The notes under the pieces are model-generated. The model did no database searches, was not told the DNA's origin, and saw only the letters and a program-made list of their open reading frames with translations. This document shows positions 20,821 to 42,603 of a stretch of 45,228 nucleotides of DNA, piece by piece. The DNA comes from Calditrichota bacterium (GTDB taxonomy: Bacteria; Calditrichota; Calditrichia; RBG-13-44-9; J042). Position 1 is the first letter of the stretch. Each line of letters opens with the position of its first letter. The stretch lies in assembly GCA_013150955.1 (NCBI GenBank), contig JAADJD010000041.1:1-45228 (forward strand), written 5' to 3'. Both the position numbers and the translations under genes were made by a program.

Positions 20821-22281
20821 TTATTTGAGTATTCCTACCTGGGCATTAAACGCCTCAATTTGCCGATCGATTTCTTCCAGCCGATTTTGTTTTTCCATCC
20901 AATAGTCCGGATAATCGTACCACTGCGCATCCAGTTCTTCCACGGACTTGCCCTGCTGCTCGATCCAGGTAAAATATTTTAAATTGTGAATGCGCTTCCG
21001 CTCGTAATACCCCAATTCCATCACGAAATCGGTGTGAATGCCCATGAGGTAGCGATGATAATCCCGGATGGCATCCTCCCGGGTATAGGGACCAAACTGC
21101 TCTCGCATCTCTTCCAGACGGCTGGCGTACAGTTCCATGGAATCCGTGAACACCGTGAACACGGCATCGCGTTCGGTTAACTCGAAATATTTTGCAAACT
21201 TAATGGCGGCAACCAGATTGCCCACCCCGGAAATACCAATGAGCGGCAGCTGCTGGATGTCCTGATCGCTCAGTCCCTGAGCAGCCAGATAATCCTGCCC
21301 CGCCGGTTCGTTAAACAAACGAATCAGGTGCATGGGAAAATGATCGTCCACCGCAATAACCACGTCGGTATTGCGCACGTTGTGGATCCAGGGCACATGT
21401 TTGTCTCCAATCCCCTCAATGCGATGACTTCCGTACCCGTTTAAAAGCAGGGTAGGGCATTGCAGGGCTTCGGCTGCACCGATGCGCATCCCGGGAAACC
21501 GCTCCTTCAGAAAATCGCCGGCGGCAATTGTTCCCGCAGATCCGGTGGCCACCACCAGGCCCGCAAACCGTTCGCGATCCGAAAGCTGCTGATGCAGCAC
21601 CTCCTCCATGGCCCGGCCGGTGACGTGAAAGTGCCACAAATAATTGCCAAACTCTTCGAATTGATTGAAAATGACGATGTCATCCCGGGTGGCCCGCAAT
21701 TCCCAGCATTTATCGTAAATTTCCTTTACGTTCGACTCGCTCCCCGGAGTGGCGATGACCTCCCCGGCAATCGAGCGAAGCCACTCAAACCGTTCCCGAC
21801 TCATCCCTTCGGGCAAAATGGCAATGGATTCGCACCCCAGTAGTGCCGAATTGAAAGCCCCGCCGCGGCAAAAATTCCCCGTTGAGGGCCATACGGCCTT
21901 CTGGGTAGTGGGATCAAACTCCCCGTTGACCAGTCGGGGAACCAGGCATCCAAAGGTCGCCCCCACCTTGTGGGCTCCCGTGGGAAACCATTTGCCCACC
22001 AGCGCAAATATGCGGGCACGCACTCCCGTTAATGTGGAAGGAATCTCCAGAAAATTCACGCCTCCGAAAAGTCCACCGTGAGATACAGGTTCGTTCTTCC
22101 AGCTCACGCGGAACAGGTTCAGGGGATTTACTTCCCAGAGACCCACCTGCTTTAATTTTTCCCGAATCGTTTCCGGAATGGTTTCCGGATTCATCAGCTG
22201 TTTGAAAGTGGGAATAACAATCCCTCGCTCCCGGGCGCGTTGAATCGCTCGCTCAAGAAATTCCTTTTTCTGCTGGCTCAT
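20821..22281 (-). CDS. PLP-dependent fold-type II enzyme (TrpB/cysteine synthase-like), substrate unknown
   Basis: This 486-residue enzyme has the tryptophan-synthase-beta fold pattern. The probable PLP lysine is in FPTGAHKVGATFG. The phosphate-binding and substrate loop is STGNFCRGGAFNSALLG, and a glycine-rich loop is VVATGSAGTIAAGDFL. It is longer than cysteine synthases and carries a C-terminal 70-residue helical tail (KRIHNLKYFTWIEQQ ...). It is not close to E. coli YgeX (2,3-diaminopropionate ammonia-lyase), which has KDES and AFKMLGG, yet occupies a similar place next to the Mo-hydroxylase genes. It sits 112 bp downstream of the threonine-synthase-like gene, same strand. A lyase or deaminase acting on the amino-acid end product of purine breakdown is my inference, not shown by motifs. 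Confidence 0.8.
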   Translation of the reverse strand: MSQQKKEFLERAIQRARERGIVIPTFKQLMNPETIPETIREKLKQVGLWEVNPLNLFRVSWKNEPVSHGGLFGGVNFLEIPSTLTGVRARIFALVGKWFPTGAHKVGATFGCLVPRLVNGEFDPTTQKAVWPSTGNFCRGGAFNSALLGCESIAILPEGMSRERFEWLRSIAGEVIATPGSESNVKEIYDKCWELRATRDDIVIFNQFEEFGNYLWHFHVTGRAMEEVLHQQLSDRERFAGLVVATGSAGTIAAGDFLKERFPGMRIGAAEALQCPTLLLNGYGSHRIEGIGDKHVPWIHNVRNTDVVIAVDDHFPMHLIRLFNEPAGQDYLAAQGLSDQDIQQLPLIGISGVGNLVAAIKFAKYFELTERDAVFTVFTDSMELYASRLEEMREQFGPYTREDAIRDYHRYLMGIHTDFVMELGYYERKRIHNLKYFTWIEQQGKSVEELDAQWYDYPDYWMEKQNRLEEIDRQIEAFNAQVGILK

Positions 22282-22393: not shown

Positions 22394-23632
22394 TCACACC
22401 TTTAATGCCCTCTCCACGGCGGCCAGCGAATTCTCGATCCGAATCGGGCTTTGCCTGACCGCCTGGAACACTCCATCAATATCCTTCAACCCGCTGCCGG
22501 TGATTTGCACCAGTACCGTGCTGTGGGAAGGGAGTAAATTCTCCAGCACCATTTTCCGAAGTCCCGCAAATGCGGCCGCAGCAGCAGGTTCGGCCATGAT
22601 TCCACCAACCCGCGCCAGTAGCGCCATGGCTTGGCGAATGGCATCGTCTTCCACGGCAATAAACCGCCCGCCGGACTCCCGAACGGCTTTTAGCGCCTTT
22701 ACCTGATCCCGGGGAACTCCCACCGCAATGCTGTCGGCAAAGGTACGGGGTTCCACCGGTTCTACCGTGTCCTGCCCTTTTTCCCAGGCGGTGACCAGCG
22801 GTGCACTTCCCGCCGCCTGCACCCCAATCAATCTGGGCAGGCGATCAATAAACCCCAGATGATAAAAATCCCGAAATCCCTTCCACATTCCCTGAATGAT
22901 GCACCCATCCCCCACCGGCACAAAAACGTAATCGGGCACCTGCCAGTCCAGCTGTTCACAAATTTCCAGTGCCGCCGTCTTTTTTCCTTCTCCCAGATAG
23001 GGATTAATGGCCGTGCTGCGATTGTACCAGCCCCACTTTTCAGCGGCCTGCATGCACAGATCGAAGGCCTCATCGTAGGTGCCTTCCACCTGCAACACCT
23101 TCGCGCCGAATAACAACAGCTGGGCAATTTTTGCCCGGGGTGCATGGCGGGGCACAAAGATCACCGTCTCCAGTCCGGCCAGCGCGGTGAATGCCGCCCA
23201 GGAAGATGCCGCATTTCCCGTCGAAGCGGCGGTAACCACCCGCGCGCCCCTCTCCAGAGCCTTTACCACGCCTACGGAGCTCGCCCGATCCTTGTACGAG
23301 GCCGTGGGATTCCGGCTATCGTCTTTAATCCATACCCGCTTCAGCTGCCATTCGCGTTCCAGCGTCGGGTTGCGATAAAGGGGTGTCCATCCTACTGAAA
23401 GGGGCAGGATCCTTTCCGGCTGGTCGATGGGCAATACCGGTAAATAACGCCAGTGGGAATTTTCACGGCTGGCTTTCAGATCCTCCCGGCGAAACCGTCG
23501 ACGCACCGTCTCCAGATCGTACACCACCTCCAGCGTTCCCCGAATGGGCCCGCAGGCCGGGCAGGTGTAATCCACTTCCTGTTTATCATACGCGCGGTGA
23601 CAGGTCACACATTTCAACTGGATTTCTGCCAT
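22394..23632 (-). CDS. thrC: Threonine synthase-like PLP enzyme
   Basis: This is a 412-residue protein with an N-terminal zinc-ribbon-like segment (CVTCHRAYDKQ, then TCPACG), as in many ThrC proteins. The PLP lysine lies in NPTASYKDRASS, the phosphate-binding loop is ASTGNAASSWA, and the C-terminal glycine loop is ITGSGLKDID. ThrC makes threonine from O-phosphohomoserine. No hom or thrB gene is nearby, and it lies directly between the XdhD-like gene (116 bp upstream) and another PLP enzyme gene, so a catabolic or paralogous role (for example on a diaminopropionate-type amino acid) is possible. The family is clear; the exact substrate is less certain. Confidence 0.85.
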   Translation of the reverse strand: MAEIQLKCVTCHRAYDKQEVDYTCPACGPIRGTLEVVYDLETVRRRFRREDLKASRENSHWRYLPVLPIDQPERILPLSVGWTPLYRNPTLEREWQLKRVWIKDDSRNPTASYKDRASSVGVVKALERGARVVTAASTGNAASSWAAFTALAGLETVIFVPRHAPRAKIAQLLLFGAKVLQVEGTYDEAFDLCMQAAEKWGWYNRSTAINPYLGEGKKTAALEICEQLDWQVPDYVFVPVGDGCIIQGMWKGFRDFYHLGFIDRLPRLIGVQAAGSAPLVTAWEKGQDTVEPVEPRTFADSIAVGVPRDQVKALKAVRESGGRFIAVEDDAIRQAMALLARVGGIMAEPAAAAAFAGLRKMVLENLLPSHSTVLVQITGSGLKDIDGVFQAVRQSPIRIENSLAAVERALKV

Positions 23633-23748: not shown

Positions 23749-26325
23749 CTATTGCGCTCGCACCCTCAACTTCTTCGGTCGAATGCGCAGGGGCAGTTTA
23801 TACCGGCGGATGCCATCGTACTGGCAGTAGGCATTGGCCACCGCGGCGGCGGTGGGCACCAGGCCAATTTCCCCCACCCCTTTGGCACCGTAGGGGCCGT
23901 GGGGATCGGGAACTTCCACGGCGACCACTTCAACCCGGGGCATTTCTTTTGCCCGCAAAATTCCCAGCTTCCGCAAGCGGGTGGTTTTGGGCACTCCCTT
24001 CTCCAGCACCAGTTCCTCCGTTAACGCATAGCCCAGGCCCATGTGGATGGCCCCTTCGATTTGCCCTTCAAACAGATTGGGATTGATCACTTTACCCGCA
24101 TCATGGGCAGCAATTACTTTTTCCACCTCGCCATCATCATTCAGGATGACCACCTGGGTGGCGTACCCGTACGAGTAATGGGTGATGATTTCCTCCACAT
24201 CGGCACCCGGCTTGGTGGTCCAGTCACACCGCCATTCGCCCTCGTACACGTTGCCGACCAGCTGCTCCAGCGGTTGCTTTTCCAGGTCCCGTTTCAATTG
24301 TTGACAGGCATTCAACAATGAATTGCCGATGATCGATGTGGCCCGGGAGGCGGTGGTCATTCCAGCGGGGGCTTTTGCAATGGTATCGACGCGCACTTCC
24401 ACAATGTCCGCCGGCAAACCGGTCTCCTGGCAGAAAAACTGAACCGCCATGGTGTGGACTCCCTGTCCCATCTCGGTCCACCCATGGTGAATGATGACCC
24501 GATCCGGGGCCTGAATCTCTATTTTCACTTTGCCTTCATCCGGCATGCCATTTCCAATTCCGGTATTTTTGATGCCACAGGCAATTCCGGCATATTTGGC
24601 GCTGTAAAAGGCATCCTTCACCGCCAGCAGGGCTTCGCGCACCCCGCAGGCCGCCTTAATGATCTGCCCGGTGGCGGTCATGCGTCCCTCCGTCAGCGCA
24701 TTACGGTAGCGAAATTCCCAGCGATCAAATCCCCCCAGCTTGCACAATTCATCGATGCAGCTTTCGATGGCAAAGGTTACCTGATTGACCCCAAATCCGC
24801 GCATGGCGCCACAGGGAATGTTGTTGGTGTAAACGGCTCGACTGACAATGTCCACGTTGGGAATATGGTAGGCCCCGGTGGCGTGACCCGCTGCCCGCTC
24901 CAGCACCTTCATGCCCACAGAGGCGTAAGCGCCGGTATCTCCGATGATGCGGGCCCGCAGGGCCGTCAAATTCCCCTCCGCATCGCAGGCCAGGGTGTAT
25001 TCCATTTTCATGGGATGACGCTTGGGGTGCATCCGGATGGACTCGTCCCGTGTGAGGGTGATTTTCACCGGCTTCTTCAGCAAATGGGCAAACAAGGCCG
25101 TGTGGCCCTGAACAGACAAATCTTCCTTTCCCCCAAATCCCCCTCCATTGGAGACCAGAATCACCCGGACCTTTTCCCGGGGCAGTCGCAGCAATTGGGC
25201 AATTTGCACTTGATCGTCATACACGCCCTGGCCCTGAGAATACACCCGAAGTCCATCGCCTTCCGGAACGGCCAGGCAACTTTCCGGCTCCATGAATGCG
25301 TGTTCGATCATCTGGGTCTCGTAAACGCCGTGGGTCACATGGGCGGCCTCTTTCAGCGCCTGATCCACGTCACCGCGCTGGATGACGGTTTCGGAAAGCA
25401 GATTCCCCCGGGGATGAATTGCCGGACTCTCCGGCTTCAGCGCCTCTTCCGGATCAGTGATCGGCTCCAGCACCTCGTAAGTGACCCGAATGGCGGCCAC
25501 CGCCTGCCTGGCTGCATCTTCCGAAGTCGCCACCACTCCGGCCAGCACATCGCCCACGTAGCGGGTCTCTTCTCCCTCCTGAATCATCAGCGGCCAATCT
25601 TTGACAATGAGGCCGGTGAAGCGTTCTCCGGGAATATCTTTTGCGGTAAACACCCGCACCACCCCGGGAATTTTGCTGGCAGCATCGGTGTCAATCCGAA
25701 TCACCCGGGCACGGGGATGATCACTAAATTTCAATGCCCCGTACAGCATACCCGGCACTTTCATATCGGCAATGAAGGGCCGCTGGCCAAGGACCAGCTT
25801 TTCCGCTTCATATTTCGGGTAGGACTGCCCCACGCCCGTCTGCCGGGGCATTTCCGGCAGCGAGTCGCTCTTCTGTTTCAGCTCCGCAGCATATAAAATG
25901 GCGTCCACAATCTTCTGGTACCCGGTGCAGCGGCAGAGATTGGGCGTTAACGCCTGCCGAACCTTTTCTTCATCGGGCCGGGGATGATGATCCAGTAACA
26001 CTTTTGCCTGCATCACAAAGCCCGGAATGCAATACCCGCATTGAACCCCTCCTTTTTCCACAAACGCGCGGGCAAAAATGCGCTGCAGTTCCGGTTCCAT
26101 GCCCTCTATGGTGATCACGTTTCCATCCGCCACTTTCTTCATGGGAGTCACACAGGAAAGCACCGCCCTGCCATTTAATTCCACCGTACAGGCACCACAG
26201 GCCGCCTGTGGCGAGCAGCCGTCCTTAGGCGAGGTGATCCCCTCGATTTCCCGCAGGTACCTCAACAACGAAAGATCCGGGTCCCCGTCATAAACCCTTT
26301 CCTGACCATTTAACCAGAACCTCAT
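23749..26325 (-). CDS. XdhD-like molybdenum hydroxylase with fused [2Fe-2S] domain (selenium-dependent xanthine dehydrogenase type)
   Basis: This 858-residue enzyme combines an N-terminal ferredoxin domain with the Mo-pterin domains; there is no FAD domain. The first cluster uses C37, C43, C46 and C58 and the second C96, C99, C131 and C133 (QCGYC and LCRCTGY). The Moco part has GGGFGGKEDLS (Glu of the purine site), MRGFG (Arg contacting the substrate) and KGVGEIG near the C-terminus with the catalytic Glu. This domain order matches the family annotated as selenium-dependent xanthine dehydrogenase and XdhD, found with YgfK, SsnA, YgeW and YgeY. The start has AGGAGGT upstream. Electrons must leave to a separate flavoprotein or ferredoxin. 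Which purine it acts on, and whether selenium is needed, cannot be read here. Confidence 0.9.
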   Translation of the reverse strand: MRFWLNGQERVYDGDPDLSLLRYLREIEGITSPKDGCSPQAACGACTVELNGRAVLSCVTPMKKVADGNVITIEGMEPELQRIFARAFVEKGGVQCGYCIPGFVMQAKVLLDHHPRPDEEKVRQALTPNLCRCTGYQKIVDAILYAAELKQKSDSLPEMPRQTGVGQSYPKYEAEKLVLGQRPFIADMKVPGMLYGALKFSDHPRARVIRIDTDAASKIPGVVRVFTAKDIPGERFTGLIVKDWPLMIQEGEETRYVGDVLAGVVATSEDAARQAVAAIRVTYEVLEPITDPEEALKPESPAIHPRGNLLSETVIQRGDVDQALKEAAHVTHGVYETQMIEHAFMEPESCLAVPEGDGLRVYSQGQGVYDDQVQIAQLLRLPREKVRVILVSNGGGFGGKEDLSVQGHTALFAHLLKKPVKITLTRDESIRMHPKRHPMKMEYTLACDAEGNLTALRARIIGDTGAYASVGMKVLERAAGHATGAYHIPNVDIVSRAVYTNNIPCGAMRGFGVNQVTFAIESCIDELCKLGGFDRWEFRYRNALTEGRMTATGQIIKAACGVREALLAVKDAFYSAKYAGIACGIKNTGIGNGMPDEGKVKIEIQAPDRVIIHHGWTEMGQGVHTMAVQFFCQETGLPADIVEVRVDTIAKAPAGMTTASRATSIIGNSLLNACQQLKRDLEKQPLEQLVGNVYEGEWRCDWTTKPGADVEEIITHYSYGYATQVVILNDDGEVEKVIAAHDAGKVINPNLFEGQIEGAIHMGLGYALTEELVLEKGVPKTTRLRKLGILRAKEMPRVEVVAVEVPDPHGPYGAKGVGEIGLVPTAAAVANAYCQYDGIRRYKLPLRIRPKKLRVRAQ

Positions 26326-26584: not shown

Positions 26585-26884
26585 ATGAAAGTCATCTTAA
26601 ATTTCACGGTGGTCCCCATTGGTGTGGGAACCTCCCTTTCAAAATATGTTGCTGCCTGTGAGAAGGTGATCACGGAAATGGGGCTGAAACATCACCTGCA
26701 CGCGAACGGCACCAATGTGGAAGGTGAATGGGACGAGGTGTTTGCCGCCATTAAAAAGTGCCATCAGGTGCTGCACGAGATGGGCGTTCCGCGGATCCAC
26801 ACGTCCATCGAACTGGGCACCCGGACCGACCGGCCCCAGACCATGGAGGATAAGGTAAAGAGCGTGCAGGAGAAGCTGGGCTGA
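26585..26884 (+). CDS. MTH1187-family thiamine-binding protein
   Basis: This is a 99-residue protein of the YkoF-like/MTH1187 (DUF77) family, small ferredoxin-fold proteins that bind thiamine or related ligands. It has the family pattern VVPIGVGTSLSKYVAACEKV, the HANGTNVEGEWDEVF turn and VPRIHTSIELGTRTDRP near the end; length is typical. AAGGAGG lies seven bases upstream of the ATG. It is on the opposite strand to all neighbours, between the XdhD-like and YgfK genes, and so breaks that run. Why it is here is unknown; thiamine salvage is the family-level guess. Confidence 0.9.
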   Translation: MKVILNFTVVPIGVGTSLSKYVAACEKVITEMGLKHHLHANGTNVEGEWDEVFAAIKKCHQVLHEMGVPRIHTSIELGTRTDRPQTMEDKVKSVQEKLG

Positions 26885-26982: not shown

Positions 26983-28935
26983 CTACCGGGAAGCCAGCAA
27001 TACAATTGCCGGGTAATTTGCCGGATCGTTTAAAAATCCCTGCAGAAGGGTTTTAAAAATGTGATACGGTTCCAGCGTCAACAAAACATCCCGATTCCCT
27101 TTCACCTGCCAGTTGATTAATTGATCGGTAGCATTCAGCCAGATCTCCGCATCGCGGGTCTTCCAGTAATAGGTTTTCTTTTCCGGATCAAACCGCAGCA
27201 GGTATTCCTCCCCATTTAAGCGCCCCTGCAACGAATACCGATCCGGGAAATAAAATCCATCATATTTCCGGAATTTGCGATAGGTTTCGGCATTCAGGAA
27301 AAATCGTGGCTTTTCGATGAACGGACCGCCATGCTCGGGACAATAGGTATCGCAATTCCCGCACTCATTGCACCAGTCCGCAATATTGGCAATCTGAAAT
27401 GATTTCTCCAGCTGAAAGGTTCCACTGGGGGAATATTCCAGATGATCCCCGGAAATGTGATACTGATGCACCGTACGCTCTCCCGGCTCCGAAGGGATGG
27501 CAAAGTTGGCCGCGTTGGGACATACGGACAGGCACTTGTTGCAGGTTAAACAATCGAACAGTGAAAGGTGGCTATCCACTTTTGGTGGATTCTTCTGATT
27601 CCGCGAATAGTGATATCGAGGATCCTGTACCAGCTGCGAGACGTACCGCTCCATGTTGGCCATTCCCGCTGCCGCAACGGTTTGCTCCTCATTCCCTTCA
27701 CTCGACCGGAGAATGTAGTCCTGAATGGTGTTGACCCCCAGGGCTTCCATTTCTGTTTTCAACTGCTTTAAATAATCGAACAATCGGGTGTAGCCACCGG
27801 TTTTAAGCAGATCGGTACACACAGTAATGGGTGTCAGGTGGCAGCGAACGGCATCGGCGAAATTGTATCTGGAGATTCCCGCCGAAAAGGAGATGGGGAA
27901 TTGGTCGCCCAGCGCCCGGCGGAACCGATAGGCCGCATGCATGGCCAGGACATGCAGCGGGGTTCCCGACAGGTACATGACCTCGTCTTTGAAAAAGTCC
28001 TGATTGTTTTTTACCACCAGGGTATTGGTGAATTTGGCCCCAACACGTTTCCCATGCTGCCGGGCAAACACCTGCAAGCGTTTCATCATATCCACCGCCT
28101 CGTCAAACTGCAGATCGTGCGCAAAGGCCTGTGGATCCAGTTCCAGGTAGGAGTAACCCAGCTGTTCAATCAGTATTTCGCGCACCGCGTCATATCCCAG
28201 CAGCGTGGGATTCATTTTGACAATGACGTGAAAGCCCTGTTCCGCAATCAGGTACTGGACAATGGATTCGATCTCGTCCCGGGGACATCCGTGGAAGGTG
28301 GACAGGGTAACGGAATCCGCAATGTACGGATCCACGGGAAATTTCCGGAATTGGGAAAACTCCGGCGAAAGCGATCGCAACATGGTCTCGATTGCGGCCG
28401 AAGCATCCCGCATATGGCGAAGCCACTGGCTCACCCGATCCGAGGTGATGCCCTTCAGATCGTAACCCACGGACACATCGAATATGGTGCGGTAAAACGG
28501 AGAGCCTTTGGGCACCTCCAGCAACTCCATCTCCTCGATCAATTTAATGAGTACCCAGGCAGTAACGTATTCCTGGTAAGATTCGTCCAGGGTCAGTTCC
28601 TGAGACCATTCCACATTAAAGCCGATGTTTGGTGCGTAAATGCAGGGGCGGGGAATCTCCAGCCGATCCAGGACTTGCACCGTCTTTAGCTCAATGATTC
28701 GGGCGCCCCCCAGAAATGCCAGCACAATATTTTGCGCCAGCTGGGTGTGGGGACCGGAAGCGGGTCCCAGCGGCGTGGCAGCCTCTTTCTCGTGGAATGG
28801 AACCGAAAAATCATACCCTTCAAACCCGGTAAAGAATTTTCGGCGGGGATAACCGTAAATGCGCTGATGCGCTCTCAATTCGGAAGTGATTGCCTTCAAA
28901 TGGGTTCCCAGAGGAATGCCTTTCAGCTCTGCCAT
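26983..28935 (-). CDS. ygfK: YgfK-like iron-sulfur protein lacking the internal FAD/NAD(P) module
   Basis: This 650-residue protein matches the two ends of E. coli YgfK (about 1,030 residues). Residues 1-430 are the dihydroorotate-dehydrogenase-like barrel (ATPLGPASGPHTQLAQNIV, IELKTVQVLDRLEIPRPCI, TLSTFHGCPRDEIESIV, KMNPTLLGYDAVREIL, TDLLKTGGY). At 455-535 come two ferredoxin-type motifs, C462-C465-C468-C472P and C522-C525-C528-C532P, followed by a 115-residue tail. The roughly 400-residue GltD-like flavin/pyridine-nucleotide domain that E. coli YgfK carries between these parts, and its extra Cys motif, are absent, with no sign of a frameshift. YgfK is the electron-transfer partner of XdhD-type enzymes (selenate reductase-like or 2,8-dioxopurine/urate reductive chemistry). 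This form must use another electron donor. The start has GGAG nine bases upstream. Confidence 0.88.
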   Translation of the reverse strand: MAELKGIPLGTHLKAITSELRAHQRIYGYPRRKFFTGFEGYDFSVPFHEKEAATPLGPASGPHTQLAQNIVLAFLGGARIIELKTVQVLDRLEIPRPCIYAPNIGFNVEWSQELTLDESYQEYVTAWVLIKLIEEMELLEVPKGSPFYRTIFDVSVGYDLKGITSDRVSQWLRHMRDASAAIETMLRSLSPEFSQFRKFPVDPYIADSVTLSTFHGCPRDEIESIVQYLIAEQGFHVIVKMNPTLLGYDAVREILIEQLGYSYLELDPQAFAHDLQFDEAVDMMKRLQVFARQHGKRVGAKFTNTLVVKNNQDFFKDEVMYLSGTPLHVLAMHAAYRFRRALGDQFPISFSAGISRYNFADAVRCHLTPITVCTDLLKTGGYTRLFDYLKQLKTEMEALGVNTIQDYILRSSEGNEEQTVAAAGMANMERYVSQLVQDPRYHYSRNQKNPPKVDSHLSLFDCLTCNKCLSVCPNAANFAIPSEPGERTVHQYHISGDHLEYSPSGTFQLEKSFQIANIADWCNECGNCDTYCPEHGGPFIEKPRFFLNAETYRKFRKYDGFYFPDRYSLQGRLNGEEYLLRFDPEKKTYYWKTRDAEIWLNATDQLINWQVKGNRDVLLTLEPYHIFKTLLQGFLNDPANYPAIVLLASR

Positions 28936-29104: not shown

Positions 29105-30460
29105 TCAGCGCGTCTGATAAAACCGTTCCCATACCCGCCGCGCCACGACGCGTGCTTCGTAGGCAATCTTCTCCTCATCGATGTGAAGCAATTGCCGGTC
29201 GCGCATAATCACCCGGCCATTCACGATGGTCGTATTTACCGGCGCATCAATAAAACCAAACAGAAAATGTCCCCAGATGTTGTCCGGGGTCAACTCGGTA
29301 GGTGCCCAGTAGTCCAGTAAAATCAGGTCTGCCAGGAAACCTTCTTTGACCTGCCCCACCGGTTGCCCGGAAATTTCCCGGTAAATCCGGGGATTGTTTT
29401 TCCAGGCCATGGTCTGGATCTCCTCCCACCCAAAATTGGGATCCTGCAGGGCATGCTTGTGCAACCAGGCCGCCATGCGAACATCCGCCTTAACATCCGG
29501 CGTCATGCCATCGGTACCGATGCCCGCAATCACCCCTCGATTCAATAATCCCAAAATATCCGTTCGCCCCACCGCATTGTTCATATTGGATTGCGGCTGG
29601 TGGGCGATAAATGCTCCCGATTCGGCCAGTAGATCTTTCTCCTTTTCATTCAGGTGAATGCAATGGGCGGCGATTGCCCCCGAAGTTAACACCCCGCTGC
29701 GCACCAGCCGTTCAATGACGCTTTGCTGCCCATATTTCCGGAAGGTCTCTTCCCGATCCACCGCATCCTCCAGCACATGAATATGGCACCCCCGATTTAA
29801 GGTTCGGCTCAAATCCACCGCCGCTTCCAGGGTATTGTCATCCACCGTAAAAGAGGCGTGCAGTCCCACCATGCCATCAAAGGGGTGGGATGGATCGTGC
29901 TGGCGTGCACGCTGACATTCCCTGATATAGCGCTCGTTCTCCCGAAGGCCCTGCTGGGCAATGGCCCTGCCATCGCGATCGGAAACCTCGTAGCACAGGA
30001 TGCCGCGTAATCCCACCTGAGCCAGTGCCGCTTCGATTCGATCCAGGCTGCCATCCACCGCATGGGGACTGGCATGGTGGTCGATAAATGCGGTCACCCC
30101 GGCCTTTGCCGCACCAATCGCCGGTAACAACGCACTGAAATACACCGCTTCGGGATCCAGCGAACGATCCAGGCGCCACCACAAAAATTTCAGAATCTCA
30201 GCAAAATTTCGCGGGGTTTCAGGCAGCGCCAGTCCCCGGGCAAAGGTGCTGTAAAAATGCATGTGCACATTCACCCAGCCAGGCATCAGCAGGCGGCCCC
30301 CGCCATCCAGGACGGGCAAATCGGCATACGCCTCCCGCAACTGTAGTTCGGAACCCACGGCCACAATCCGATTCCCTTGAATGGCCACCGCCCCGTTCCG
30401 GATAACCCGATTTTGTTCATCATTGACAAAAATTTCCACATTGGTAATCAACAGGCTCAT
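29105..30460 (-). CDS. ssnA: SsnA-type amidohydrolase (aminohydrolase of purine-degradation clusters)
   Basis: This 451-residue amidohydrolase-superfamily enzyme is related to guanine and chlorohydrolase-type deaminases. Metal ligands are visible: H-M-H in NVHMHFYSTFARG, His in GLHASF, His in AAHCIH, and Asp in GIGTDGMTPDV. The text VHMHFYSTFARGLAL and TNNPRIYREI-like KNNPRIYREI are characteristic of SsnA, found with YgfK and XdhD. SsnA is proposed to hydrolyse a purine-derived ring. I chose the ATG (MSLLITNV) preceded by GGGGGG; a GTG 12 bp upstream is the only alternative. It lies upstream of ygfK on the same strand with 169 bp between. Repeat copy 5 starts 58 bp upstream of its start codon. 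Confidence 0.92.
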   Translation of the reverse strand: MSLLITNVEIFVNDEQNRVIRNGAVAIQGNRIVAVGSELQLREAYADLPVLDGGGRLLMPGWVNVHMHFYSTFARGLALPETPRNFAEILKFLWWRLDRSLDPEAVYFSALLPAIGAAKAGVTAFIDHHASPHAVDGSLDRIEAALAQVGLRGILCYEVSDRDGRAIAQQGLRENERYIRECQRARQHDPSHPFDGMVGLHASFTVDDNTLEAAVDLSRTLNRGCHIHVLEDAVDREETFRKYGQQSVIERLVRSGVLTSGAIAAHCIHLNEKEKDLLAESGAFIAHQPQSNMNNAVGRTDILGLLNRGVIAGIGTDGMTPDVKADVRMAAWLHKHALQDPNFGWEEIQTMAWKNNPRIYREISGQPVGQVKEGFLADLILLDYWAPTELTPDNIWGHFLFGFIDAPVNTTIVNGRVIMRDRQLLHIDEEKIAYEARVVARRVWERFYQTR

Positions 30461-30517
30461 ATTGCCCCCCACATTTCAATTGCAACCATCAACCATATGG
30501 ACAGAGGTCATCCATTA

Positions 30518-31056: not shown

Positions 31057-31596
31057 CTACATTACCCGCAAGCGGATGTGACATTCGGGTGCTCCGTTCA
31101 GCATACACTGGGTTTCGCTTACGGAAATCCGTTCGCCAAAATGATTGGCCACTCCCCGGGCAATACCTTTGGCCAGGGCACACATCTTTCGGGGCGAAGC
31201 GTAAACCAGCAGCAACTCACCGGGACTGATCCGCTGGCATTTCAATTCGGCCGGTCGGGCTCCCGGATTTTTCATACGCACCACCTTGTGAATCACTTCT
31301 TCGGTATTCTCAATCAAATCCAGCGTTTTCCAGTTGGGCTGCACCAGCGCTTTGTACATCTGAAGCAATTGCGGCGCAATGAATTGCCCAAACTCTTCGA
31401 GAATCACCGCCGGCGATTTGTGCGTGATCCGGGCAGCTGCCTGCACCAGCGCTACCGCTTCCTGATCGGGATATTCCTGGATGGCCATGTAAATCCGATT
31501 TCCCAGTCCGGCTTCTTTTAACAGACGCTGCCAGGCCCCCGGGCCAAGGGAATGATCCACAAACTTACGTAATTCGGAGAAAACGATTCCATGCAT
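31057..31596 (-). CDS. H-NOX (heme NO/O2-binding) domain protein, stand-alone
   Basis: This is a 179-residue single-domain H-NOX protein. It opens MHGIVFSELRKFVDHSLG, the standard start of the family. The proximal heme ligand is H103 in LIENTEEVIH, and the propionate-binding YxSxR motif is Y132-A-S134-P-R136. C139, C164 and C172 (the last two in CMLNGAPEC) recall the cysteine cluster that binds zinc in some bacterial H-NOX proteins. Such proteins sense nitric oxide and usually sit next to a histidine kinase or diguanylate cyclase; none is adjacent here. It is monocistronic, with its own terminator, inside the purine-degradation island. A signalling role toward these oxygen-sensitive enzymes is an inference only. 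Confidence 0.85.
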   Translation of the reverse strand: MHGIVFSELRKFVDHSLGPGAWQRLLKEAGLGNRIYMAIQEYPDQEAVALVQAAARITHKSPAVILEEFGQFIAPQLLQMYKALVQPNWKTLDLIENTEEVIHKVVRMKNPGARPAELKCQRISPGELLLVYASPRKMCALAKGIARGVANHFGERISVSETQCMLNGAPECHIRLRVM

Positions 31597-32216: not shown

Positions 32217-33338
32217 CTATCTGGATGAGGAATTAAGGTGGGTCTTCTGAAATTCGGCAATTTGCAGCCGCATGGGCCTGCCCTGCCCCCCGCGCCGAAT
32301 CATGATTATTTCCGCCAGCACGCTGATGGCAATTTCTTCCGGAGTCAGGGCACCGATGTCCAGTCCCACAGGCGCGTACACATTTTCCAGTCGAGAAGCC
32401 GGCGTGCCATCATCCCGCAAATGCCGCAGGATCATGAGAATCTTTCGCTTGCTCCCCAGCACCCCAATGTAGCGGGCCGGGGTCGCAACCGCCGCCTGAA
32501 CCGCCCGGTCATCGTAACGATGCCCCCGCGTTGCCGCAATAATGAACGCATTCCGGGGCACATTAAACTGGCGCAGGGCCTGATCATACGGCGCCACGTA
32601 AATCTCGTCGGCTTCGGGGAATCGTTCCGGGTTGGCAAATTCCGCCCGATCGTCGATAACGATGATGCGAAAATCCAGATGTCGCGCCAGGGAAGCAATG
32701 GCTTTGTTCACATGCCCACCTCCCAGCAGAATCAAGGTAACCGGGGCGGTGATGCCTTCCAGAAAAATGCGCGCCCCATCCTGTGTATCGATTAATTGAT
32801 TTTCCCCGTAAGGTGCCAGCTGCCGGGCCCGGGCAATCACCGATTTGTCCGGCACCGGAAATGTTCCTTCCCCCAGAACCGTTCCATCCATGCGAATGAT
32901 TACCTTCAGCCCAACGGGCAGATTCGTCTTCCCTCCATCAACCACGGTGACCATTGCAACCGGTGAGTCCCCTTCCAGCGCGTTTTCCAGCTCCGACAAC
33001 ATCCGGGTGGACACATGGGGAGATGGGAAGGGTTCCAGCAGAAACCGCATGGTCCCCCCACACACCATGCCATCCTGTGCGGCCAGCTCGGCATTCAATG
33101 TATGTTGAACCGTGCAGGCCGTTCCCCCTTCGGCCAGCAATCGTTTGGCCCGGTACCACAAATCCCCTTCCACACACCCACCCCCCAGCGTGCCGACAAA
33201 CGATCCATCCGGGCGCACCAGCAATCGGGCACCCGCCTTCTGGGGGGACGATCCCCGCGTCTCCACCACAGTAACCAGCACACAGGGCTGCTGACGCTTC
33301 AAACAGGCCAGCCACTCTTTCAACACCGTTTGTTTCAT
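32217..33338 (-). CDS. xdhC: XdhC-type molybdenum cofactor insertion/sulfuration chaperone
   Basis: XdhC binds Moco, protects its sulfurated form and inserts it into xanthine dehydrogenase. The 373-residue protein has the N-terminal XdhC/CoxI domain (ETRGSSPQKAGARLLV, GGGCVEGDLW, MVCGGTM) and the C-terminal Rossmann domain (LLGGGHVNKAIASLARHLDF, AATRGHRYDDRAV, YIGVLGSKRK). It is the last gene of the xdhA-xdhB-xdhC run, 136 bp after xdhB. In clusters with selenium-dependent hydroxylases, YqeB, YqeC and YgfJ usually do cofactor maturation; none is in the window. Confidence 0.95.
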   Translation of the reverse strand: MKQTVLKEWLACLKRQQPCVLVTVVETRGSSPQKAGARLLVRPDGSFVGTLGGGCVEGDLWYRAKRLLAEGGTACTVQHTLNAELAAQDGMVCGGTMRFLLEPFPSPHVSTRMLSELENALEGDSPVAMVTVVDGGKTNLPVGLKVIIRMDGTVLGEGTFPVPDKSVIARARQLAPYGENQLIDTQDGARIFLEGITAPVTLILLGGGHVNKAIASLARHLDFRIIVIDDRAEFANPERFPEADEIYVAPYDQALRQFNVPRNAFIIAATRGHRYDDRAVQAAVATPARYIGVLGSKRKILMILRHLRDDGTPASRLENVYAPVGLDIGALTPEEIAISVLAEIIMIRRGGQGRPMRLQIAEFQKTHLNSSSR

Positions 33339-33474: not shown

Positions 33475-35781
33475 TTACTTTCCTGCGGAGCTCGTCGCCA
33501 GCACACGGGATCGCAACCGGGCAATTTCTTCCCGGTGCAGTTCCATGAGCACGCGTTCCGGAGTCAACGGCGCCCGGAAGGCATAGTCCTCCCGCGGGCG
33601 AAACGCCTGCATGGCCTGCCGGATGGCAAAAAACACCCCTATCCCATACATAAACGGCGGCTCACCAACCGCCTTATTACCGAACGGGCCTGTGGGCTCA
33701 TCCGCATTTTCCAGAAAGGTAACCTCTAAATCATCGGGCATGAAATACACATCGGGCAGCTTGTAGGTCGCCAGCGCTCCAGACAGATTCCGGCCATTTT
33801 CGTCGAACACCAACTCTTCCACAGTCATCCATCCCAGTCCCTGGGCCAATCCTCCTTCCACCTGGCCCAGATCGACCCGTCGATTCAGCGGCCGTCCCAG
33901 ATCGTGCACAATCTTCACCGCATCGATGGTATACGTGCCTCGCAGCGCATCCAGGGTTACTTCCAGGATGGCGGTACCGTAGACGTGATAGGCAAACGGC
34001 CGGCCCTTTTCCTTCTGCTTATCGAAATAAATGCCGGGTGTGGCAAAAAATCCATGGGCCGAAAGACTCACCCGCTTAAAATAGGCCGTCTGCACCAGCT
34101 TTTCCCAGGTCCAGCCGGTCTCGCTCCCCCGGTAAAAAATTTTCTCATCCTGAATGGTAATGGATTCCGGATCGGGGACATTCAACTCCCTGGCCACCAG
34201 GGGTTTTAATCGGGAAAGAATTTGCTGAATGGCCAGCAGAGTGGCATTTCCGTTCAGCACGGTGGTGGCACTGGCGGCACTGGGGGACATGTTCGCAATG
34301 CGGGTGGTGTTGGTGGACTCCATCTTAATTCGTTCCAGTCGAATGCCCAGTGCCCGCGCAGCAATGGTGGCAATGTTTGCGCGCAGTCCCTGCCCCATCT
34401 CCACTCCGCCGGTCGAAATGCTCACGCTGCCATCCGTGTACACATGCACCAGGGCACTGGCCTGATTCAAAAACGTGGCGGTAAAGGAGATGCCAAAACA
34501 GATGGGCATGACCGCCAGGCCCTTCTTTTTATGAAAATGAGATTGGTTAAACTGCTCGACCCGCTGCTTCCATTCGGAAAAGCGGTACACTTCCATGGCC
34601 GTGTCCCAGGTTCGGCGTGCGCGGCAATCCGTTGCCCGCTGCCCGTATGGGAACAGATCATTTTCCTTCAACAGGTTTTTCCGCTGAATCTCCTCCCGCG
34701 GCATGTTTAACGCCTCGGCGACCCGGGCAATGGCAGACTCCATCACGAACATCCCCTGGGGTCCACCAAAGCCCCGAAACGCGGTAAACGGTGGCAAATG
34801 GGTCCGGCAGGACACCGCAAACAATCGCACATTGGGAATAAAGTAGCTGTTGGTGCTGTGAAAGAGGGTTCGTTCCAATATGGCGGGCGAAAGGTCCGCA
34901 GCCGCCCCCGCATTTTGATAATGCCGCACCTCGAAAGCCAGGATCCGGCCATCGCGGGTTACCCCGATTTTAAAATCGGACTGATAGGGGTGGCGCTTTC
35001 CGGTCATGATCATGTCTTCTTCCCGGGATAAAACCAGCTCCACCGGCTTACCGGTATGCCAGGTGGCCAGCGCCACCAGACAGGCCCATGCCGTTGCCTG
35101 ATCTTCCTTTCCACCAAAACCACCGCCCAGTCGCAGCACGTCTACTTCGATGAGATGATTGGGATAACCCAGGACCCTGGCTGCATGGCGCTGCACCGCG
35201 TAAGGGCTCTGGGTGGAAGAATAAATGCGGATTGCTTTCCCCTCAGCCGGGACCGCCCGGGCCCGCTGGGTTTCCAGATACACATGCTCCTGTCCGCCAA
35301 TTTCACAATGGCCTTCCAGAACCAGATCGCATTGCTCCCAGGCTGCCTCCACATCCCCCAGCTGAAACACCCGCGGGGTGCCAATGATTTCTCCTTTCTC
35401 GTACGCTTCCCGGGGATCGGTAATCACCGGCAGATGATCCACCTGCAGGGAAATCCGCCGGGCCGCTTTACGCGCCTGTTCCGCATGGGTGGCCACTACC
35501 AGTGCAACGGGCTGGCCAATATAAAACACCTCCTCGCTGGCCAGCAATTCCTGATCCGGAATCAACGGACCGATTTGATTTTCTCCGGGAATATCTTTTG
35601 CCGTCAATACCGCAACCACGCCTTCCATTTCCAGTGCCGCAGAAACATCCAGCTGGCGGATACGCCCATGCGCTACCGGAGAGAAAAACACCGCTGCGTG
35701 AAGCATGCCCTCCGGTTGGGGCAAGTCGTCCACATAACGGGATTCCCCCCGGGTATGAAGTTCGGGATCATGGAATGGCAT
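33475..35781 (-). CDS. xdhB: Xanthine dehydrogenase molybdopterin-binding subunit
   Basis: This is a 768-residue Mo-pterin subunit of xanthine dehydrogenase. The active-site text is canonical: GGGFGGKEDQ (Glu near the purine), FTAFRGFGGPQGM (Arg that orients xanthine) and NKAVGEPPFMYG with the catalytic Glu. The order matches the C-terminal two thirds of bovine XDH. Its start (after GAGGG) overlaps the end of xdhA by 14 bp, so the subunits are translationally coupled. With xdhA it should form an alpha-beta dehydrogenase oxidising hypoxanthine and xanthine with NAD+. It is distinct from the XdhD-like enzyme 7 kb away; the window thus encodes two Mo hydroxylases. Confidence 0.96.
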   Translation of the reverse strand: MPFHDPELHTRGESRYVDDLPQPEGMLHAAVFFSPVAHGRIRQLDVSAALEMEGVVAVLTAKDIPGENQIGPLIPDQELLASEEVFYIGQPVALVVATHAEQARKAARRISLQVDHLPVITDPREAYEKGEIIGTPRVFQLGDVEAAWEQCDLVLEGHCEIGGQEHVYLETQRARAVPAEGKAIRIYSSTQSPYAVQRHAARVLGYPNHLIEVDVLRLGGGFGGKEDQATAWACLVALATWHTGKPVELVLSREEDMIMTGKRHPYQSDFKIGVTRDGRILAFEVRHYQNAGAAADLSPAILERTLFHSTNSYFIPNVRLFAVSCRTHLPPFTAFRGFGGPQGMFVMESAIARVAEALNMPREEIQRKNLLKENDLFPYGQRATDCRARRTWDTAMEVYRFSEWKQRVEQFNQSHFHKKKGLAVMPICFGISFTATFLNQASALVHVYTDGSVSISTGGVEMGQGLRANIATIAARALGIRLERIKMESTNTTRIANMSPSAASATTVLNGNATLLAIQQILSRLKPLVARELNVPDPESITIQDEKIFYRGSETGWTWEKLVQTAYFKRVSLSAHGFFATPGIYFDKQKEKGRPFAYHVYGTAILEVTLDALRGTYTIDAVKIVHDLGRPLNRRVDLGQVEGGLAQGLGWMTVEELVFDENGRNLSGALATYKLPDVYFMPDDLEVTFLENADEPTGPFGNKAVGEPPFMYGIGVFFAIRQAMQAFRPREDYAFRAPLTPERVLMELHREEIARLRSRVLATSSAGK

Positions 35782-37189
35782 AATAGTCCCTCACCTGCAT
35801 TTTTTCCGGAAAAAGTTCCGTAAAATGGGCAATAATCAATTGCCGGGTTAAAAGCCGCTTGTAATCCGCACTTCCACGGATATCGCTGATGGGCGAAATT
35901 TCTTCCATCGCCTGTTCGATGGCCCCTTCAACGGTTTCAGGGGTACAGGGCCTGCCCACCAAAAACCGGCTGGTCTTTTCCAGGTAGAGGGGAATTGGCG
36001 CCACGCCTCCCACTGCCAGCGCCGCTTCTCGAATGATGCCTGCTGCATCGCAGCGCAGGCGAATGGCACTGTTTACCGAAGCAATATCCAGTGTCCGCCG
36101 CTTGCTCACCTTTTCAAAATGAATCTGACACTTTCCAACAGAAAGCGGCAGGCGCACTTCGGTCAGAATCTCACCCGGCTGTTTGTCCAGTTGTTTGTAT
36201 CCACGATATAATTTCCGCAACGGAATCACCCGCTGCTGTCGGCCTTTTTGCATCACCACTTCTGCATCCAGGGCCAGCAGCAGAATGACCCCATCGGCGA
36301 TGGGTGAAGCGTTGATGATGTTGCCACCAATGGTGGCCCGGTTGCGAATCTGCAGGGAAGCCACCAGAAACATGTACTCCTGAATCCGGGGAACCAGCTT
36401 CTGCACTTCGGGATGATTGCCCAGTTCCTCGAAGGTCGTCAGCGCCCCGATACGCAAAAACCTCCCCGCGCGTCGGATGCCTTTCATCCGGGGGTAGCGA
36501 TTCAGGATGTGCACGCTGGCTTCGGGGAGCATCTCCCCGCGCTGCACGTAAATATCCGTCCCCCCGGCAATGATCAGGCGCTCCTCCGATCGCCCATCGC
36601 GGGATACGGGAGGTGGAATCCGACGTAACCGTTCGGGCATTTCCAGAAAATACGCTGGCAACCAGCCATGTTTTACCAGTTCCTCCACGCCGGTATGCTC
36701 GCCCACTATCTTCTTCAAATGCAAATAAGCGTCTTTCAGGGAACGGTATCCGGTGCACCGACACAGGTGGCCGCTCAACCAGCGCTTGACGCCATCAGCG
36801 GTAATGGGTTGATCCGTTTGCATCAAATAGCCCGTTAACGACACCACAATGCCCGGGGTGCAAAAACCGCACTGGGTGGCACCTTCCTCCACAATGGCTT
36901 TTTGAACGGGATTCAAATAGGGCAGGTTTAATCCCTCGATGGTAACCAGATGTTTTCCATGCAATTCTCCCACCGGCATTAAACAGGAGGTCACCGGTCG
37001 ATATACCACGTCGTCGCCCTGTAATTCTCCCACCAACACCGTACAGGCACCGCAATCCCCTTCCTTACAACCCTCTTTTGTGCCCACCAGCCGCTGTTTC
37101 TTACGGAGATAATCCAGCACCAATAAACCGGGAGGCTCGTTGCAGCGTATCTCTTCGTTGTTTAACCAGAAATGGAGCTGTGCCGACAT
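35768..37189 (-). CDS. xdhA: Xanthine dehydrogenase small subunit ([2Fe-2S] and FAD domains)
   Basis: This 473-residue subunit carries two [2Fe-2S] clusters then a CO-dehydrogenase-flavoprotein-type FAD domain. The first cluster is GCKEGDCGACTV plus a later Cys (TSCLMP); the second is TQCGFCTPG with HLCRCTGY. The FAD domain (from about residue 190) contains IIAGGTDIYVQRGE, TIGGNIINASPIADG and the C-terminal GGVAPIPL. It passes electrons from the XdhB Mo site to NAD+. I chose the ATG with GAGGAA six bases upstream rather than the TTG two codons before. It is the first gene of the xdhABC run; the 200 bp upstream hold no repeat. Confidence 0.96.
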   Translation of the reverse strand: MSAQLHFWLNNEEIRCNEPPGLLVLDYLRKKQRLVGTKEGCKEGDCGACTVLVGELQGDDVVYRPVTSCLMPVGELHGKHLVTIEGLNLPYLNPVQKAIVEEGATQCGFCTPGIVVSLTGYLMQTDQPITADGVKRWLSGHLCRCTGYRSLKDAYLHLKKIVGEHTGVEELVKHGWLPAYFLEMPERLRRIPPPVSRDGRSEERLIIAGGTDIYVQRGEMLPEASVHILNRYPRMKGIRRAGRFLRIGALTTFEELGNHPEVQKLVPRIQEYMFLVASLQIRNRATIGGNIINASPIADGVILLLALDAEVVMQKGRQQRVIPLRKLYRGYKQLDKQPGEILTEVRLPLSVGKCQIHFEKVSKRRTLDIASVNSAIRLRCDAAGIIREAALAVGGVAPIPLYLEKTSRFLVGRPCTPETVEGAIEQAMEEISPISDIRGSADYKRLLTRQLIIAHFTELFPEKMQVRDYYAIP

Positions 37190-37396
37190 GGCCAATTCCT
37201 CATCATCATAATCAAAAGGACTTTTGAAAACAGGACACTTCTTTTACCGCCGGGCTCACAAAGCCAGCTGTCCAGACCTGTCCGGAAAACTGCTTCCCCA
37301 ATCACAATCCGCGATCTACCAGGGAAAATAACACGGCGATTCAGGGAATGCAAACAGATTCAGGGGGGAACGGGGCATCCCCTGGCGAGGGAAAAT

Positions 37397-40016: not shown

Positions 40017-40170
40017 AAACAATAAAATAACGCCCGCGGGAGACCCAAGACCAGAGAAATGAAAAATTTTGTCCCCCTGAACCGAATGGGTTTTCAATTT
40101 TTCCTTTATTTTCAGGGTGGGATTTACGATAATCCGGTGTTCCACAGGAAACGATTCAGGAGGTGGCGAT

Positions 40171-41361
40171 ATGGACACACTGAAACAGGCACAGGCCATT
40201 GAACCCGAACTGATCACTTTTTTGCAGGACATCGTTCGCATTCCTTCCCCCAGCGGTGAAGAAGCCAGAGTCGTTCAGCGCATTCGGGAGGAGATGGAAA
40301 AGGTGGGATTCGAAGAAGTGAAAATCGATGGTCTGGGAAACGTGATGGGGCGGATTGGAAGCGGCCCCCGGGTCGTGGCCATCGATGGTCACTGCGATGT
40401 GGTCGACGTGGGCAACCCCGACCTCTGGACGGTTGAACCGTTCGGGGCGGAGATCCGGGATGGCAAATTGTACGGACGGGGAGCCTGCGACCAAAAAGGG
40501 GGGGTTGCCAGCGCCGTTTACGCCGGAAAAATCCTTTCCCGGATCGGCGTTCCCGACGACGTGACCGTCTGGGTGGTGGCAACCATCATGGAAGAAGACT
40601 GCGACGGGCTTTGCTGGAAATACATCATCGAGCAAAAGGTGATCGAGCCCGAACTGGTCATTCTTACCGAGCCCACCAATCTGAATATTTACCGGGGTCA
40701 CCGGGGACGCATGGAAATAAAGGTGCAAACGTCTGGAATTTCTGCACACGGCTCAGCCCCCGAAAGAGGTGATAATGCCATTTACAAAATGGCGCCCATC
40801 ATCCAGGAAATCGAACAACTGCATCCCCGCCTCAAACACGACAATTTTCTGGGCAAGGGAAGCGTGACCATCTCCGACATTCGTTCCACCGCTCCCTCGT
40901 TGTGTGCGGTGGCGGATTCCTGCACCATCCATCTGGATCGACGCCTTACCGCCGGCGAGACCATCGAAAGCAGCCTGGAAGAGATTCGCTCCCTGCCCGC
41001 GTTTCAGAAAGCGGGAGCCCGGGTGTGGGTCCCCGAATACCGGCGGGAAAGTTACCGGGGAACCGTCTATCCGATGCAAAAATACTATCCAACATGGGTC
41101 CTTCCACCCGATCACCCGGCACTCCATACGGCCATTCGCAGCTACCGGCAATTGTTTAAGACCGATCCGGTGGTGGACAAGTGGACGTTTTCTACCAATG
41201 GAGTGGGGATTATGGGATTGTTTCAAATTCCCACCATTGGGTTTGGTCCGGGGAACGAAATCTACGCCCACGCACCGGATGAGCACATTCCGCTGGAACA
41301 TCTGGCTCCTGCGGCAGCCTTCTACGCGGCCTTCGTTCACGAATGGAGTAGAGGGGAATGA
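40171..41361 (+). CDS. ygeY: YgeY-type M20 family metallohydrolase
   Basis: YgeY is an M20 peptidase/deacylase-family hydrolase linked to selenium-dependent Mo-hydroxylase clusters. The 396 residues have the family's metal and catalytic pattern: DGHCDVVDVG (first His and catalytic Asp), GRGACDQKGG (bridging Asp), MEEDCDGLCW (Glu pair), TEPTNLNIYRGHRGR and a late GFGPGNEIYAHAPDEHI with the last metal His. The text IMEEDCDG differs from carboxypeptidase G2-type enzymes and is typical of YgeY. By analogy it cleaves an amide or ureido bond in a ring-opened purine. The ATG with AGGAGGT eight bases upstream is the start. It is the first gene of the plus-strand run ygeY-ygeW-hydA-hydrolase. Confidence 0.92.
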   Translation: MDTLKQAQAIEPELITFLQDIVRIPSPSGEEARVVQRIREEMEKVGFEEVKIDGLGNVMGRIGSGPRVVAIDGHCDVVDVGNPDLWTVEPFGAEIRDGKLYGRGACDQKGGVASAVYAGKILSRIGVPDDVTVWVVATIMEEDCDGLCWKYIIEQKVIEPELVILTEPTNLNIYRGHRGRMEIKVQTSGISAHGSAPERGDNAIYKMAPIIQEIEQLHPRLKHDNFLGKGSVTISDIRSTAPSLCAVADSCTIHLDRRLTAGETIESSLEEIRSLPAFQKAGARVWVPEYRRESYRGTVYPMQKYYPTWVLPPDHPALHTAIRSYRQLFKTDPVVDKWTFSTNGVGIMGLFQIPTIGFGPGNEIYAHAPDEHIPLEHLAPAAAFYAAFVHEWSRGE

Positions 41362-41499: not shown

Positions 41500-42480
41500 A
41501 TGATCGGACAGTTAAAAGGGCGAGACTTCATTTCCACTCAGGACTGGAGCGACGAAGAGATTGAGCTGGCCTTACAAACCGCCAAAGAATTGAAATTCAT
41601 GTTTAAGAACAACATTCCCCATCGCTATCTTCCCGACAAAACCATTTTCCTGATGTTTTTCGACAAATCCACCCGCACCCGCAACTCCTTCGAGGCGGGC
41701 ATCACCCAGCTGGGGGGTCACGCCCATTACATCGATGTTAGCACGTCCCAGATTGCCCACGGGGAAAGCCCGAAGGATACGGGAATCATCCTTTCCTCCT
41801 ACGGACATGCCATTGCTATCCGACACGATCTGGTACCGGGTGAGGGGAACAAATACATGCGGGAGATGGCCCGCTGGGCCGATAAACCCGTCTTTAACAT
41901 GCAATGCGACGTGGATCATCCTTTTCAAACCCTGGCGGATCTGATGACTATCCGCGAAATATTTGGCGAGAATCTGCGGGGACGCAAGATCGTGGTTTCC
42001 TGGGCGTACGCGCCCTCCTATGCCAAACCAATGTCGGTACCTCAGGGACTGATCATGCTGATGACTCGTTTTGGGCTGGATGTGACCCTGGCACACCCCC
42101 CGGAATACAAGTTAATGGACGAACCCATGCGCATCGCCCGCGAAAACGCTGAGAAAGCCGGGGTGAAATTCGAGGTAGTGGATGACATGGATGCCGCCTT
42201 CGAAGGGGCGGACATTGTGTACCCCAAGAGCTGGGGCATTGAGGAATTGTTCGACCGACCGGAAGAAGCGCTGAAAATTGCCAAAAAATATCAGGACTGG
42301 ATTTGCGACGAACGCCGCATGAAGCTGGCCAAAAAAGAGGCCATTTACATGCACTGCCTGCCAGCAGACAGAGGATATGAAGTGACCGACGCCGTCATCG
42401 ATGGTCCGCAGTCGGTGGTTTATCAGGAAGCCGAAAACCGTTTGCACACGGCTAAGGCAATCATGGCCCTGACCATGTAA
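41500..42480 (+). CDS. ygeW: YgeW-type knotted carbamoyltransferase (compact form)
   Basis: This 326-residue enzyme belongs to the aspartate/ornithine carbamoyltransferase family. The carbamoyl-phosphate site is FDKSTRTRNSFE, a second phosphate contact is SQIAHGESPKDT, and the second-substrate loop is MHCLPADRG. The segment VVSWAYAPSYAKPMSVPQG matches the characteristic YgeW text (TWAYSPSYGKPLSVPQG), as does NMQCDVDHPFQTLADL. E. coli YgeW is about 396 residues; this one lacks an N-terminal stretch, two inner inserts and the C-terminal tail. In purine-degradation clusters YgeW is thought to recover carbamoyl phosphate from a carbamoylated intermediate, for ATP synthesis by a carbamate kinase (not in the window). 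AAAGGAGG precedes the start. It lies 138 bp after ygeY. Confidence 0.9.
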   Translation: MIGQLKGRDFISTQDWSDEEIELALQTAKELKFMFKNNIPHRYLPDKTIFLMFFDKSTRTRNSFEAGITQLGGHAHYIDVSTSQIAHGESPKDTGIILSSYGHAIAIRHDLVPGEGNKYMREMARWADKPVFNMQCDVDHPFQTLADLMTIREIFGENLRGRKIVVSWAYAPSYAKPMSVPQGLIMLMTRFGLDVTLAHPPEYKLMDEPMRIARENAEKAGVKFEVVDDMDAAFEGADIVYPKSWGIEELFDRPEEALKIAKKYQDWICDERRMKLAKKEAIYMHCLPADRGYEVTDAVIDGPQSVVYQEAENRLHTAKAIMALTM

Positions 42481-42580: not shown

Positions 42581-42603
42581 CACATAAACAGGTGGAAACA
42601 CAG

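Follow-up and report, generated by a model that had tools for sequence, protein, structure and literature searches.

The DNA analyzed here, which we call the window, is a stretch of 45,228 nucleotides that makes up an entire contig of a Calditrichota genome of 4.07 Mb with an estimated completeness of 99.7%. On its minus strand, an open reading frame with an ATG start and a purine-rich stretch upstream (26983 to 28935) encodes a 650-residue YgfK homologue, which we refer to as short YgfK. The protein comprises an FMN-type barrel (residues 1 to 400; 27736 to 28935), a linker (residues 401 to 461; 27553 to 27735) homologous to the one that enters the GltD-like module of long YgfK proteins, two [4Fe-4S] motifs of the form CxxCxxCxxxCP, and a C-terminal domain. 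The first motif (C462 to C472; 27520 to 27552) directly follows the linker, at the position that GltD takes in long forms, and the second spans C522 to C532 (27340 to 27372).

When we compared this protein with Escherichia coli YgfK by BLASTP, residues 4 to 404 matched E. coli residues 5 to 416 with 40% identity (E = 5e-90) and residues 462 to 583 matched residues 898 to 997 with 31% identity, while most of E. coli residues 417 to 897, the GltD-like module, had no counterpart. The FAD/NAD(P)H module that is missing amounts to about 445 residues. The YgfK model TIGR03315, which we take to be the same family as IPR017701, also covered the protein in two blocks only (4 to 398 and 910 to 989, with residues 4 to 398 of the protein aligned to positions 4 to 398 of the model), and the score of 445.4 bits (E = 3e-133) was below the curated cutoff of 835.3. 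All eight motif cysteines were present (C462, C465, C468, and C472; C522, C525, C528, and C532). These results bear out the sequence-only reading, which had described a YgfK with both ferredoxin motifs and no GltD-like module. An AlphaFold2 model (pLDDT of 84.6 and pTM of 0.86, with low confidence in the Fe-S parts) predicted a barrel that matches those of dihydroorotate dehydrogenase (DHODH) and dihydropyrimidine dehydrogenase (DPD) at E values of about 1e-11 to 1e-10, and a phmmer search of PDB sequences returned no matches.

We found that the short layout is neither an assembly artifact nor a local deletion. A same-genus genome encodes a short protein with the same layout and 72% identity; dN/dS was about 0.11 against a same-genus homologue (dS of 1.87, near saturation), showing that the gene is under purifying selection; and every barrel position conserved in at least 97% of 128 homologues is kept in the window protein. 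The intact reading frame, the two-block BLASTP match, the dN/dS value, the kept residues, and the short same-genus homologue led us to reject a frameshift, an assembly break, and decay, in agreement with the earlier claim that the junction is genuine. Loss of barrel residues and a deletion confined to this locus had both been raised as possible objections; the former was not seen, and the latter was rejected because the nearest relatives are all short.

The genes around short ygfK are predicted to form a near-complete reductive uric-acid cluster. On the same strand lie genes for the SsnA aminohydrolase (29105 to 30472; TIGR03314, 496.8 bits, cutoff of 455.5) and for a selenium-type xanthine dehydrogenase (Se-XDH; 23749 to 26325; TIGR03311, 993.5 bits, cutoff of 830) with 2Fe-2S and Mo domains and no FAD domain, a candidate urate-to-yanthine reductase. 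They are accompanied by a threonine-synthase-like, pyridoxal phosphate (PLP)-dependent lyase (22394 to 23632), which had no DAPAL equivalog match and may fill the YgeX step, and by a second PLP-dependent protein of 486 residues (20821 to 22281), which recurs in uricolytic clusters (20 loci) and has no clear pathway role. Also on the minus strand are an XdhC-type maturation factor (32217 to 33338), a xanthine dehydrogenase Mo subunit (33475 to 35781; TIGR02965, 790 bits, below the cutoff of 849.5), and a small subunit that carries a 2Fe-2S and an FAD domain (35768 to 37195). The plus strand carries genes for a YgeY hydrolase (40117 to 41361; TIGR03526, 549 bits, cutoff of 321.5), a YgeW-like carbamoyltransferase (41500 to 42480; TIGR03316, 256 bits, below the cutoff of 500), and a HyuA-like D-hydantoinase/dihydropyrimidinase (42592 to 44001; TIGR02033, 455 bits, cutoff of 393), so that SsnA, Se-XDH, YgeY, and the hydantoinase exceed their curated cutoffs. 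Two further genes are interspersed, one for an MTH1187-family thiamine-binding protein on the plus strand between ygfK and the Se-XDH gene (26585 to 26884; TIGR00106) and one for a Haem-NO-binding (HNOB)/V4R protein on the minus strand between ssnA and xdhC (31057 to 31596), which is also found in the same-genus genome (L051).

Short YgfK proteins form a real domain-level variant, as the sequence-only reading had supposed. After duplicate removal, our set of barrel sequences held 127 members besides that of the window, namely, 95 short forms from about a dozen named phyla, 30 long forms, and 2 hybrids. Among 40 Calditrichota genomes, 8 besides that of the window encode an essentially full-length short homologue (41 to 72% identity), 3 more have partial matches, 7 have a 1,029- to 1,075-residue form or fragments of it, and none has both the short and the long form. 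When 84,980 genomes were searched with the C-terminal half, 385 proved to encode relatives; the best 80 of these, which we retained, come from Calditrichota, KSB1, SAR324, Acidobacteriota, Planctomycetota, Verrucomicrobia, Marinimicrobia, Myxococcales, Elusimicrobia, Latescibacterota, Sumerlaeia, and others. The balance between forms varied among samples, with 4 short and 1 long in 150 Elusimicrobiota genomes, 1 short and 15 long in Verrucomicrobiota, roughly equal halves among 24 in Acidobacteriota, and a barrel match in 15 of 149 Planctomycetota genomes, 2 of them with GltD. All 32 short members that we tested matched TIGR03315 (best E value, 4.9e-134), and none of the 32 matched PF01180 (DHO_dh) at an E value of 0.01 or less or a pyridine-nucleotide domain.

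Across many phyla, the recurrent neighbors of short ygfK are ssnA, Se-XDH, PALP1/2, ygeY, ygeW/OTC, and yqeA genes. In the 79 short-form loci of at least 9 kb, SsnA was encoded nearby in 35 and a Mo subunit in 39, 22 of which had no FAD subunit at all; the corresponding counts for 26 long-form loci were 14, 15, and 3. This difference in Mo subunits without an FAD partner is only suggestive, because an adjoining ordinary xanthine dehydrogenase also brings an FAD subunit. In many short-form loci, ssnA and Se-XDH genes are absent within 10 kb. At the genome level, 37 of the 40 short-form genomes tested had SsnA-model matches at an E value of 1e-60 or less, a threshold that also picks up two archaea.

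The point at which long and short forms diverge is a cysteine. The linker NPRYHxxxNxxxPxKVxSxLxLFDC is common to both, most clearly when acidobacterial long forms such as L226 are compared, and after its terminal FDC the long forms continue into the GltD N-terminal Fe-S domain, whereas the short forms continue into the CxxCxxCxxxCP ferredoxin cluster. The short form shares with E. coli-type YgfK (TIGR03315), the NAD(P)H-dependent yanthine reductase of E. coli and its relatives, a homologous barrel, the linker, the C-terminal Fe-S pair, and the neighbors SsnA, an XDH-type reductase, and YgeY. In addition to lacking the GltD-like module and scoring below the TIGR03315 cutoff, it differs in its first Fe-S motif, for which long forms have the five-cysteine EAxRCLxCxxxCxxCxxxCP, and in a longer stretch between the two motifs. 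The same order of barrel, linker, and CxxCxxCxxxC cluster with no GltD between them is found in E. coli PreA and the C-terminal half of DPD. The barrel profiles of short YgfK and PreA aligned with E = 3e-8 (hhalign), but PreA and DPD share only about 15% identity with short YgfK, act on pyrimidines, and have their GltD partner either as an adjacent gene product (PreT) or as an N-terminal fusion.

In E. coli, yanthine is made from urate by XdhD-YgfM and is then converted to ureidomethyl-hydantoin by YgfK and SsnA at the expense of NAD(P)H (PMC12507026). The sequence-only reading had assumed an XdhD-YgfK complex; we found no support for one, and the published enzymology does not support the premise either, since it pairs XdhD with YgfM and assays YgfK in the presence of SsnA and NAD(P)H (PMC12507026). 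Its other point, that a short YgfK acting as a reductase needs a separate electron donor, stands. We propose, with a probability of about 0.72, that the gene encodes a YgfK-family yanthine (2,8-dioxopurine) reductase without its own NAD(P)H-oxidizing module, driven by an external low-potential donor, most likely ferredoxin. The FAD-less Se-XDH would convert uric acid to yanthine, and short YgfK would receive single electrons from a soluble carrier of low potential, most probably ferredoxin that pyruvate:ferredoxin oxidoreductase (PFOR) keeps reduced. The C-terminal pair of [4Fe-4S] clusters would relay them to FMN within the barrel, the FMN would reduce the purine ring, and SsnA would hydrolyze the product, pulling the reaction forward. 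We infer this path, and with it the occupancy of the FMN and Fe-S sites, the substrate, the direction, and the donor, from the FAD-less precedents UacX and PydAc, the likeness of the barrel to those of E. coli YgfK, DHODH, and DPD, the gene context, and the PFOR encoded in the genome (1880 bits).

Of these precedents, UacX of Clostridioides difficile has the same proposed pathway step, lacks an FAD domain, lies in a uricolytic cluster, and has been assayed with reduced methyl viologen, with ferredoxin as the proposed donor (PMC12507026). Its gene, like short ygfK, neighbors one for an XdhD-type enzyme that has no FAD subunit of its own. UacX is a PydA homologue with PF01180, and we set the two apart by domain content rather than by direct sequence comparison. 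PydAc of Clostridium chromiireducens is a dihydropyrimidine dehydrogenase that, as predicted for short YgfK, has an FMN site and ferredoxin domains and no FAD; it works with reduced ferredoxin or methyl viologen, but belongs to another family and acts on uracil (PMC7332683). We rejected PFOR as a marker of the short form, since it did not clearly track either form in Calditrichota, where one short-form genome (G030) lacks it and several long-form genomes have it. A motif scan for a dedicated ferredoxin near short ygfK was positive in only 5 of the 79 loci, 2 of these hits being GltD-like genes, and no CxxCxxCxxxC protein other than YgfK is encoded in the window. In a Collinsella cluster, a 4Fe-4S protein encoded between a long ygfK and a selenium-dependent XDH gene (L181, 12012 to 12491, plus strand) is a possible electron carrier.

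A less likely alternative is an NAD(P)H-driven enzyme to which an unlinked GltD-like subunit docks in trans, in the manner of E. coli PreT and PreA, which are encoded by adjacent genes and form two subunits of one NAD-linked enzyme. The window's genome does contain several unlinked stretches that match the GltD portion of TIGR03315 (for example, C50:40201-41109 and C41:39374-39859), but GltD-family proteins are so common that their presence elsewhere in a genome says little. The sequence-only reading had suggested looking for a separate GltD-like gene that accompanies the short form; we found one nearby in only 2 of the 79 loci of at least 9 kb (L103 and L128), and the annotated one is a GltD-plus-PreA fusion of the PydA/DPD type rather than a free partner, so we regard docking in trans as unlikely. 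Both of these genes adjoin short ygfK in Verrucomicrobia on the minus strand (L103, 4293 to 6836; L128, 5799 to 8321), and the fusion, in L103, lies beside ssnA and could be a second reductase.

It is also rather improbable that the short clade acts on another substrate (a different oxopurine or a pyrimidine) or works oxidatively in some hosts. The pyrimidine-reducing PreA and DPD have the same fold, and the loci without ssnA and Se-XDH nearby would fit such a role, but short ygfK is recurrently linked to SsnA, Se-XDH, YgeY, and YgeW-type genes, the barrel of the window protein is about 40% identical to that of YgfK, and the Pfam DHO_dh model matched no short member tested. That short YgfK is a decayed or truncated, catalytically dead protein is strongly disfavored; an entire module is missing relative to the characterized E. 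coli enzyme, but the low dN/dS, the retained barrel positions and cysteines, and the recurrence of this layout in 95 further distinct sequences all argue against it.

Reductive uric-acid breakdown has been worked out in gut bacteria, where NADH drives YgfK, ferredoxin is proposed to drive UacX, and there is also a variant of the F420 type. If our reading of short YgfK as an externally driven reductase is correct, an FAD-less YgfK-family enzyme in about a dozen named phyla would add another wiring of this step and extend the pathway to soil, sediment, and marine bacteria. Short and long YgfK proteins would then also provide clean pairs for the gain or loss of NAD(P)H dependence through one module at one cysteine. 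In a published survey, SsnA neighbors were colored by IPR017701, PF01180, and PF00296 (PMC12507026), a scheme that probably left the short forms unlabeled. Such surveys probably undercount them, because short forms miss both the YgfK model cutoff and PF01180.

To which form the module was added, or from which it was lost, was addressed with trees of the barrel. FastTree placed the short forms in one clade (support of 0.961) adjoining the two hybrids and apart from the 30 long forms, and IQ-TREE with 48 taxa gave moderate ultrafast bootstrap support for the short forms (78) and for short forms plus hybrids (85). The hybrids are Planctomycetota YgfK proteins of 1,189 and 1,139 residues (L167, 1 to 3567, minus strand; L168, 49 to 3465, plus strand) in which a GltD module lies between a short-type barrel and the Fe-S pair. 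Their GltD modules cluster with those of long YgfK proteins (0.986) when a limited selection of generic GltD proteins is used for comparison, a grouping that suggests one fusion event. Midpoint rooting fell between the long forms and the short forms plus hybrids; an unfinished run under a non-reversible model, which we did not use, put the hybrids inside the short forms and the root on a single tip.

The sequence-only reading had offered, as one of two alternatives, that the two-domain form is ancestral. Compatible with this are the single split between short and GltD-containing forms in the reversible-model barrel trees and the layout of PreA, which has the same linker-then-cluster order without GltD; given this match, the short layout may be the ancestral one and counts as a good candidate. 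On the other side, the approximately unbiased (AU) test with PreA/PydA outgroups rejected none of three constrained roots (P = 0.36 to 0.43; only 5000 replicates), the unconstrained outgroup tree rooted among the long forms, and a deletion from cysteine to cysteine would yield an identical junction. Only tentatively, then, do we suggest that a short, ferredoxin-driven YgfK was the original, that the environmental reductive uric-acid pathway is older than the NADH-driven version of E. coli, and that a single insertion of GltD at the first cysteine of the cluster gave the 1,000-residue YgfK.

One locus, L054 (genome G040), carries short ygfK and a full set of uricolytic neighbors in a single co-directional run and is the sole barrel carrier among the 111 genomes of its phylum sample, which suggests transfer or a binning error.
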